64,000 nucleotides of DNA, taken from assembly GCF_900105685.1 (NCBI RefSeq), contig NZ_LT629781.1:1550001-1614000 (forward strand), read 5' to 3'. Shown here piece by piece: positions 48,253-49,635 of the stretch. A program made the position numbers and the translations under genes. A model generated the notes under the pieces. It did not search any database. It was not told where the DNA came from and saw nothing but the letters and a program-made list of their open reading frames with translations. This DNA is from Verrucomicrobium sp. GAS474. Lineage in GTDB: Bacteria; Verrucomicrobiota; Verrucomicrobiia; Methylacidiphilales; GAS474. Position 1 is the stretch's first letter, and each line of letters starts with the position of its first letter.

Positions 48253-48585
48253 TCAGGAGCATCGCGTCTTCACGCGCTTCCGGTCCTTTTGCAGCTGCTT
48301 GTCGGCGTCCCAGACTTCGCAGAGGGCGTCGAGGGCCTTCAGCCATGCCTTGGGCAGCTTTTCGGCCAGCCGGTAGTGCATCCACGTTCCCTCGCGCCAG
48401 CCCTCGACGAGCCCGGCCTGGCGGAGGATGCCGAGGTGGCGGGAGATGGCGTATTGGGGGAGCTCCAGCGCCGATTCGATCTCGCAGACGCAGAGGGATT
48501 GCTCCTTCAGGAGGCGGATGATCCGCAGGCGCGAGGGATCTCCCAGGGCCTTGTGCTGGCGGGCGAACGAGGCGAGGTCGGGCAT
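48253..48585 (-). CDS. arsR: ArsR-family arsenic-responsive repressor
   Basis: A 110-residue winged-helix repressor. It has the As(III)-sensing motif LCVCEIESAL with C32 and C34, and the recognition helix follows in ELPQYAISRHLGILRQAGLV with the wing GWREGTWMHYRLA. A further C-terminal Cys (TRCS) is near the end. The start at MPDLAS follows GTGGGGGC; upstream codons in the frame run through the operator and are not likely to be translated. It is divergent from arsC-DUF6428-aquaporin, with one operator between, so it should autoregulate and control both transcripts. Confidence 0.94.
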   Translation of the reverse strand: MPDLASFARQHKALGDPSRLRIIRLLKEQSLCVCEIESALELPQYAISRHLGILRQAGLVEGWREGTWMHYRLAEKLPKAWLKALDALCEVWDADKQLQKDRKRVKTRCS

Positions 48586-48639
48586 GCCCCCACGATTCCC
48601 CTCCTTTCCCTCCAAGTCAATTCCACAGGCGGGAACGGG

Positions 48640-48669
48640 TTGACATATATGCTTAAAATTGCATATATG
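48640..48669 (+). promoter_or_regulatory. arsC promoter overlapping an ArsR-type operator
   Basis: CATATATGC and GCATATATG form a perfect 9-base inverted repeat around TTAAAATT. The -35 box TTGACA overlaps its left arm, and a -10 TATATG 18 bases later lies in the right arm. Bound ArsR would therefore cover the whole promoter. The -10 box ends 11 bases before the arsC ATG, so the message would have a leader of only about 0-6 bases, which suggests leaderless initiation. Confidence 0.85.
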
Positions 48670-48680
48670 CATCTATTCCC

Positions 48681-49112
48681 ATGAAAAAGGTCCTCATCCT
48701 CTGCACGGGCAATTCGTGCCGCAGCCACCTCGCCGAGGGGTTTCTCCGCCATCGCGCGGGGGATCTCTTCGAGGTGCACAGCGCCGGGTCGAAGCCGACC
48801 GGATACGTCCACCCGAAGGCGATCGCGGTGATGCGGGAGATCGGCATCGACCTCTCCCGTCACGCTTCCAAGAACATGGCGGAGTTCCTCGACCGGCGCA
48901 TCGACATCGTGATCACGGTCTGCGGGAACGCCGATCAGGCGTGCCCGGTGTTCCCCGGCCAGGTTGGCCGCCACCACTACGGCTTCGACGATCCGGCCCA
49001 GGCGGAGGGAACCGAGGAGGAAGTCCTCGCCGTCTTCCGCCGCGTCCGCGACGAGATCGGCCGGGTCTTCGAGGCTTACGCCGACGGATGGCGCGATGCC
49101 CTGAAGGATTGA
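48681..49112 (+). CDS. arsC: Arsenate reductase, thioredoxin-coupled LMW-PTP type
   Basis: A 143-residue enzyme. The P-loop is [17 protein letters not shown], with nucleophile C8, C13 and R14. C81 and C88 in [13 protein letters not shown] match the C82/C89 redox pair of the pI258-type ArsC, so electrons come from thioredoxin. Arsenate is reduced to arsenite, which then must leave the cell. It is the first gene of a three-gene operon with DUF6428 and an aquaporin. The start is the first ATG after the overlapping promoter. Confidence 0.95.
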
Positions 49113-49137: not shown

Positions 49138-49635
49138 ATGCAAACCTCCGCATTCCTCAAGCTCATCGAATCGCATCCGACGAAGTTCCTCCGCTTCCTC
49201 GATCACCGGAAAGTCGTGGTCCACCCTTCCTATCACGTTTCCGAGGTGAAGACGGCGACCTTCGCGACGGTCGATTGCGGGGGCATGGCCCATCATTGGA
49301 AGGAAACCATCTTTCAGCTTTGGCTCTCGGACGATCCCGACTCGGAACGGGCCATGGCGGCGGGGAAGGTGACGGGCATTCTGGAGGAGGTCTCCAGGCT
49401 CATCGCGGTCGACCCCGATACCGAATTGCGGATCGAGTACGGCAACGATGTCTTTCCCCCGGTCGTCTTCCACATCGACAAGGTCGAGGTGAAGGCCGAG
49501 GCGGTCGAGGTCTTCCTCCGTCTCCCGGTCCTGCAATGCAAGCTGGAGGAACGCGGGAAATCGTGCGCCCGTCCCGCAGAAACCGGGGCGGCGGCGGCGG
49601 ACGGGTCTTGTTGCTCCGGCCCCGGTTGCTGCTAA
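49138..49635 (+). CDS. DUF6428-family protein with Cys-rich tail
   Basis: A 165-residue cytoplasmic protein. MQTSAFLKLIESHPTKFLRF, HPSYHVSEVKTATFATVDCG, and WKETIFQLWL are recognised DUF6428 features as I recall them; the family is often found in arsenic loci. The last residues are SCARPAETGAAAADGSCCSG and PGCC, so two CC pairs with a further Cys. Such clusters could bind As(III) or another soft metal. It lies between arsC and the aquaporin with gaps of 25 and 4 bases. The function is unproven; a chaperone passing arsenite to the channel is an inference. Confidence 0.85.
   Translation: MQTSAFLKLIESHPTKFLRFLDHRKVVVHPSYHVSEVKTATFATVDCGGMAHHWKETIFQLWLSDDPDSERAMAAGKVTGILEEVSRLIAVDPDTELRIEYGNDVFPPVVFHIDKVEVKAEAVEVFLRLPVLQCKLEERGKSCARPAETGAAAADGSCCSGPGCC

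Follow-up and report, generated by a model that had tools for sequence, protein, structure and literature searches.

The Cys-rich tail of a protein at an arsenic-resistance locus is a standard part of DUF6428, an uncharacterised family usually found among bacterial arsenic-resistance genes

Introduction

Few metalloid defences have been studied as well as arsenic resistance, and the DUF6428 family is an uncharacterised component of it, usually found among bacterial arsenic-resistance (ars) genes. A search of open-access literature, outside whose scope most subscription papers lie, yielded no paper on the family under the names DUF6428, PF20001 or IPR045534. In addition, the accessible parts of three sources on unknown ars-operon genes (PMC4435449, PMC7965956, PMC3834237) contained nothing that could be tied to DUF6428.

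Two kinds of described system come closest. In the available part of PMC4562236, the ArsD of R773 is described with C-terminal Cys pairs at Cys112-113 and Cys119-120 that are not found in every ArsD; the C-terminal pairs are tied there to regulation and the three N-terminal Cys to chaperone work, and three-thiolate As(III) sites are given as Cys12, 13 and 18 of ArsD and Cys32, 34 and 37 of ArsR. As far as the accessible text of PMC6205960 goes, arsN has been reported fused to arsC or arsD, As(III) from ArsC leaves by a channel in the AqpS-ArsC system of Sinorhizobium meliloti, and an AqpS-ArsC fusion is known in Salinispora.

Results

DUF6428 lies between an ArsC-type gene and an aquaporin gene

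The window, that is, the whole stretch of 64,000 nucleotides analysed here, comprises bases 1550001-1614000 of a genome that forms a single contig of 3.76 Mb. As the original prediction had stated, the DUF6428 gene was found between a reductase gene and a channel gene, in the following arrangement.

48253..48672, minus strand: ArsR-type repressor, divergent; PF01022 E 1.2e-16, NF033788 over its cut-off, CVC motif in the translation
48681..49112, plus strand: ArsC-type reductase, 25 bases upstream of DUF6428; PF01451 E 1.4e-21
49138..49635, plus strand: DUF6428 gene, 165 amino acids plus the stop TAA (49633-49635); Pfam PF20001
49640..50419, plus strand: aquaporin (MIP), 4 bases downstream of DUF6428; PF00230 E 8e-40, NPA motifs in the translation

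In a Pfam scan, the ORF at 49138-49635 matched PF20001 with an E value of 7.2e-31 and 107.6 bits against a cut-off of 28.7, over positions 1-155 of the 155 in the profile. Since this match runs through the Cys tail to the last residue, the tail is part of the described DUF6428 family. The ArsC-type neighbour has the low-molecular-weight phosphatase fold, and its best NCBIfam match is thioredoxin-class ArsC (TIGR02691); because the score of 139.2 bits lies under the cut-off of 174.3 for membership, we name it "ArsC-type" only. The aquaporin is the presumed exit for As(III). ArsR, ArsC and MIP genes stand together at the locus, the gene set by which an AqpS-type operon is recognised. The ArsR ORF as listed begins 9 bases from the ArsC start; its real start may be an internal Met, in which case a shared operator would have about 95 bases of room.

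The Cys tail is a standard part of the DUF6428 family

The window protein contains seven Cys, at positions 47, 134, 143, 158, 159, 164 and 165, and its C-terminus reads GSCCSGPGCC, with four Cys among the last eight residues. The Cys-rich tail with GSCCSG and PGCC that had been described beforehand is present at the very C-terminal end of the ORF, and it is shorter than the "final third" of the protein to which it had been assigned, the part after Cys143 comprising only the last 22 residues. The positions of interest are as follows.

49276..49278, plus strand: Cys47 in the DCGG motif, identical in 132/132 homologues
49537..49539, plus strand: Cys134, followed by Lys here (CK) and by Leu (CL) in 115/116 of the other subfamily; the Cys identical in 132/132
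49564..49566, plus strand: Cys143, the second Cys before the tail; Cys in 124/132, and in 8/16 of the window's own subfamily
49567..49608, plus strand: variable linker ahead of the Cys pairs, with low model confidence (about 50)
49609..49632, plus strand: terminal CCSGPGCC with the vicinal pairs 158-159 and 164-165, read from the sequence

At the Cys frequency of 0.72% measured over 43 greedily chosen window ORFs, a rough set, the binomial chance of four Cys in ten residues is about 5e-7, and every one of the 43 has at most two Cys among its ten C-terminal residues; the DUF6428 ORF is itself absent from this control set because a longer overlapping frame displaced it.

Genome searches, genome contigs and plasmid records gave 144 loci encoding 132 distinct DUF6428 proteins, and 128 intact unfused homologues remained after removal of the three that are fused to ArsC and of one truncated at a contig end. 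At least two Cys were found within the last 20 residues of 123 of the 128, and a CC within two residues of the C-terminus in 107. The homologues lacking two such Cys are L058, L098, L108, L110 and L111, with a CC further in for L058 and L110. L098 and L110 lie in ars loci beside ArsC and have no Cys at all in the last 20 residues, indicating that members of the larger of the two subfamilies described below can do without the tail. In the window's own subfamily all 16 proteins have at least two Cys there, so that the tail is steadier than Cys143.

The original prediction had asked whether the tail is confined to ars loci, and it is not. Among homologues at loci with at least 2 kb on each flank, the 20 C-terminal residues included two or more Cys in 66/68 of those with an ars enzyme or transporter gene within 3 kb, in 7/8 of those with ArsR only and in 8/9 of those with neither. 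The counts of 123/128 and 8/9 rule out a tail peculiar to the window gene or to ars loci; the tail belongs to the standard make-up of the DUF6428 family and is not unusual. Since it is standard in a family located mostly in ars loci, its presence directs attention to an unstudied arsenic-resistance protein and not to an odd tail.

DUF6428 genes are strongly linked to ars genes

Gene context was counted at the 88 loci whose flanks both reach 2 kb or more, 44 of the 132 having a flank under 2 kb. Matches to ArsR, ArsC, ACR3, ArsB, ArsK, ArsH, ArsO and ArsN2 were taken as ars hits, and an aquaporin or ArsJ alone was excluded. The named loci are the best 80 of 579 confirmed, and the sample therefore leans to Verrucomicrobiota; because 11 annotated plasmid loci, together with the window, supplied the search seeds, the ars match of those loci is by construction.

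The first kb on either side of DUF6428 held 144 ars hits (0.82 per kb) and the second kb 34, against densities of 0.008 per kb at 5-6 kb and 0 at 6-8 kb, which serve as an internal control for chance. By thresholds of our own choice, an ars enzyme or transporter gene was found within 3 kb at 68/88 loci, ArsR only at eight (one with an aquaporin and two with an ArsJ-like gene within the same distance) and neither at 12, a class that includes three DUF6428-ArsC fusions and may conceal an unrecognised gene. Without the 11 seed loci the corresponding figures were 58/77, 7 and 12. ArsR was the commonest neighbour within 3 kb (71/88 loci), and thioredoxin-class ArsC was found at 60/88. Neighbours within 1.5 kb lay mostly on the strand of DUF6428: thioredoxin-class ArsC in 95/96 cases, aquaporin in 37/38, ACR3 in 41/44, ArsR in 97/108 and glutaredoxin-class ArsC in 1/2. 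The exit routes alternate: within 3 kb, 34 of the 88 loci had a pump (ACR3, ArsB or ArsK), 25 an aquaporin, 29 neither and none both, and no pump and aquaporin occurred together within 8 kb at any of the 132 loci, as far as their flanks reach.

Annotated plasmid loci from Deinococcota, Bacteroidota and Alphaproteobacteria had ArsR within about 2 kb in 13/13 cases, and further ars genes were annotated in the stretch at 12 of them, the exception being L119 from Thermus. Records with DUF6428 in an ars locus carried the labels Verrucomicrobiota, Planctomycetota, Armatimonadota, Bacteroidota, Deinococcota and Alphaproteobacteria. ACR3 (E up to 0.001) was present in 26/40 genomes with DUF6428 versus 174/387 overall (Fisher p = 0.011, uncorrected for relatedness). 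The neighbour counts establish a strong linkage of the DUF6428 family to ars genes. In a first scan, the single window protein as query gave no match among the genome contigs. In the phylum sampled for L071, DUF6428 was found in 1/294 genomes, namely that of L071 itself. The record titles of L088, L076 and L080 name Klebsiella or Kuenenia, whereas the DUF6428 protein from L088 clusters with Verrucomicrobiota sequences and those from L076 and L080 fall among Gemmata- and Pirellula-type sequences; because of this conflict, the titles of these metagenome-assembled genomes (MAGs) may be wrong or the contigs misbinned.

Two core Cys are invariant in two deep subfamilies

In the alignment, H33, E36, D46, C47, G48 and C134 were identical in 132/132 DUF6428 proteins, and residue 60 was Q in 129 and E in three. 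Only C47 and C134 never vary among the Cys, suggesting that a metalloid site, if there is one, may lie in the core or be shared with it. Cys143 is Cys in only 8/16 of the window's subfamily, by an alignment that is less certain close to the tail, and a three-Cys core site thus cannot be general.

The tree separated two subfamilies of 116 and 16 proteins with a split support of 100/100, and the residue after Cys134 follows this division, with CL in 115/116 of the larger and CK in the smaller, divergent one, to which the window protein belongs. The smaller subfamily comprises the pair from the window's genome, plasmid copies from Deinococcus, Thermus, alphaproteobacteria and Mucilaginibacter, and three copies from genomes that share a family within the window's class. 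Both have the Cys tail and a mostly ars context, so that both traits are probably older than the split.

AlphaFold models had a mean pLDDT of 82 for the window protein and 89 for a typical member. Both show a helix, three strands, a helix and three strands, and in both the final 15-20 residues have a pLDDT near 50 or lower. Cys134 stands at the edge of the well-modelled core; residues 131-140, which contain it, average 55 in the window model and 84 for the matching stretch of the typical member. Foldseek comparison of both models with the PDB gave no match with E under 0.001, VIA-align gave best Z scores of 3.3 (rmsd 3.8, 76 aligned) and 3.4 (rmsd 4.2, 85 aligned), which offer no usable fold identification, and a sequence search of solved structures returned 0 matches.

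DUF6428 is fused to arsenic enzymes and occurs at both ars loci of the genome

In three planctomycete MAGs (L065, L071 and L107), a single ORF joins DUF6428 to an ArsC-type LMWPc domain, with a CC pair kept in the linker and the ArsC P-loop reached within about 15 residues. The placing of L107 relative to L065 and L071 is unsettled in the tree, and this fusion may therefore have arisen twice. Furthermore, ArsN2 (a GNAT domain) is fused to DUF6428 on plasmids of Deinococcus aetherius and D. ficus (L117:4524-5534 and L145:4524-5513). Both kinds of fusion tie DUF6428 physically to arsenic enzymes. The two plasmid genes are annotated arsN2, which hides the DUF6428 half. ArsR-DUF6428 fusions were also suspected in L035 and L038, but there the long ORF proved to be an overlapping frame, and they were rejected.

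A second DUF6428 locus of the window's genome (L138, 760957-763737) consists of an LMWPc gene, ArsC, DUF6428 and ACR3. Both ars loci of the genome thus contain DUF6428, the window's with an aquaporin and the other with ACR3. The two proteins are 80% identical and keep all seven Cys, while the linker before the tail differs.

Some copies have no ars neighbours

The lone loci include L047 (with amidohydrolase and sulfatase neighbours), L049 and L076 (DUF1501 neighbours), L072, L137 and L127-L129. Eight MAGs with lone or contig-edge loci, which may be incomplete, had ACR3 elsewhere in two cases and none in six; the ArsC profile matched clearly in that of L085 (2.6e-38), more weakly in five (1e-19 to 8e-6) and not in those of L047 and L072. 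In the part of the neighbouring ORFs that was scanned, no other metal system or common partner was found near lone copies. L137 has both TonB and phytase-like neighbours, the Thermus gene a phytase-like one, and L128 and L129 a TonB gene alone; the idea of a phytase-like or TonB partner was discarded, phytase-like proteins not recurring elsewhere save for a weak match in L088. Three of the lone copies (L127:5896-6525, L128:5974-6522 and L129:5866-6468), all from a single family within the window's class, have a longer tail with three Cys-rich groups. No ars gene was found within about 6 kb on each side of them, and they may serve another metal.

Discussion

We tentatively propose, with somewhat less than even confidence, that DUF6428 is a soluble As(III) carrier next to ArsC, with the Cys tail as a flexible thiol arm. 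An alpha-beta domain with the invariant H33, E36, D46 and C47, and with C134 at its edge, would be followed by a flexible arm of vicinal Cys pairs. DUF6428 would take up As(III) upon its release from ArsC, hold it by thiolates of the core Cys, of the arm Cys or of one handing to the other, and pass it to the exit of its own locus, an ACR3 pump or an aquaporin. The third thiolate beside Cys47 and Cys134 could be Cys143 where present, or one from the tail. Such holding and hand-off would keep free As(III) low.

The proposed carrier role is supported by the ars linkage with its internal control, the same-strand neighbours, both kinds of fusion and the plasmid loci, as well as by the ars context and tail of both subfamilies and by the seven Cys kept at both loci of the genome. 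Against it stand the tail retained in 8/9 ars-less homologues, three of them (L127-L129) having longer Cys tails, its loss of Cys in the ars-located L098 and L110, and the occurrence of Cys143 in only half of the window's subfamily. In addition, the ArsA acceptor is missing, and an aquaporin has no need of a carrier. Of the chaperone or buffer for As(III) that the original prediction had suggested, the part that stands is that DUF6428 is an arsenic-operon protein, as its linkage, fusions and ArsD-like tail indicate; the part that falls is the restriction of the tail to ars loci. We consider it unlikely, taken as one joint claim, that DUF6428 constitutes across several phyla a second class of As(III) carrier, unrelated to ArsD and serving ArsC directly with either pump or channel, and that its site consists of Cys47, Cys134 and Cys143 or a tail thiol, the tail being a fishing arm that fusion to ArsC can replace.

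The main rival is that DUF6428 is a thiol-redox partner of ArsC, whose CC arm would reduce the ArsC disulphide or accept an arsenic-thiol intermediate. Here the arm would exchange thiols with ArsC, so that its Cys would carry electrons and not stored As(III). Fusion to ArsC-type domains and the near-constant same-strand orientation of neighbouring ArsC genes fit this, as do two invariant Cys and a flexible arm suited to thiol exchange; however, ArsC of this class is named thioredoxin-dependent in NCBIfam, ArsC is missing from the 3 kb around some loci, and the arm Cys are absent from L098 and L110 beside ArsC. On balance we regard a redox partner as rather unlikely. That DUF6428 is an enzyme for arsenic or thiol-arsenic chemistry, with H33, E36, D46, C47 and C134, and perhaps Q60 and E100, in its active site and a tail that only captures substrate, seems improbable. 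The invariant H, E, D and Cys set could fit an active site equally well, and together with G48 it varies less than the tail does across the larger subfamily; the core model is confident and has no clear PDB match, and the fusions are to enzymes. Nevertheless, no fold or family match indicates an activity, and no recognised cofactor motif was seen.

The persistence of the tail in homologues without ars neighbours, and the extra Cys pairs of L127-L129, would be expected if DUF6428 handled another soft metal or general thiol stress, with arsenic as one use among several. Most loci are nevertheless ars loci, and the scanned neighbours of lone copies included no other metal system or common partner, which leaves this broader role a distinctly low probability. 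A regulatory co-sensor that sets operon expression with ArsR, as thought for the C-terminal Cys pairs of ArsD (tied to regulation in the available part of PMC4562236), appears very improbable: ArsR is indeed the commonest neighbour, and eight loci have it without a counted ars enzyme or transporter, but the Pfam scan found no DNA-binding domain, and all five fusions examined are to enzymes, the suspected ones to ArsR having been rejected.

A role of DUF6428 as As(III) carrier, if true, would explain how channel loci without a pump nearby shield the cytosol from toxic As(III) until it has leaked away. The fusion proteins can be tested directly, and the family is worth a bench test.

Comparison with known systems

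Within Pfam DUF6428 (PF20001), the window protein is a full-length member, tail included, from the smaller divergent subfamily (16/132). The likeness to mercuric reductase is one of form: in that enzyme a flexible C-terminal vicinal Cys pair hands a soft metal to the active site, and no sequence relation to DUF6428 is claimed.

Like DUF6428, ArsD is a small ars-operon protein with vicinal Cys pairs. In R773 ArsD, going by the accessible part of PMC4562236, the pairs 112-113 and 119-120 are spaced much like 158-159 and 164-165 here, and the arsN fusions to arsC or arsD in the accessible text of PMC6205960 have counterparts in the ArsN2-DUF6428 and DUF6428-ArsC fusions. On the other hand, the N-terminal Cys12/13/18 of ArsD are absent from the window protein, whose first Cys is residue 47; a Pfam scan with E up to 1 matched it to DUF6428 only and not to ArsD (PF06953), and the window's genome gave no ArsD match at E up to 0.001. 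All 40 DUF6428 genomes had only weak partial matches to ArsA (PF02374), the best reaching 35.4 bits and the longest spanning 124/305 columns, most under 55; the window's genome has no such match within 200 kb of either DUF6428 gene and no full-length ArsA. The known acceptor of an As(III) chaperone is thus missing from these 40 genomes. Replacement of ArsD by DUF6428 was considered and dropped, the two profiles sharing 1/387 genomes versus 3.6 expected (P = 0.10, not significant). The sole ArsD match among the 40 genomes (G310:C15:19079-19279) has three stops and looks decayed. With no profile match, Cys triad or ArsA, DUF6428 perhaps works like ArsD but is no ArsD.

The S. meliloti aqpS operon resembles the window locus in bringing ArsR, ArsC and an aquaporin together. 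It differs in that the available text of PMC6205960 mentions no DUF6428-like gene, and passage of As(III) through the window aquaporin is putative. Judged by its gene content, the window locus appears to be of the AqpS-ArsC kind, with DUF6428 as an added gene.
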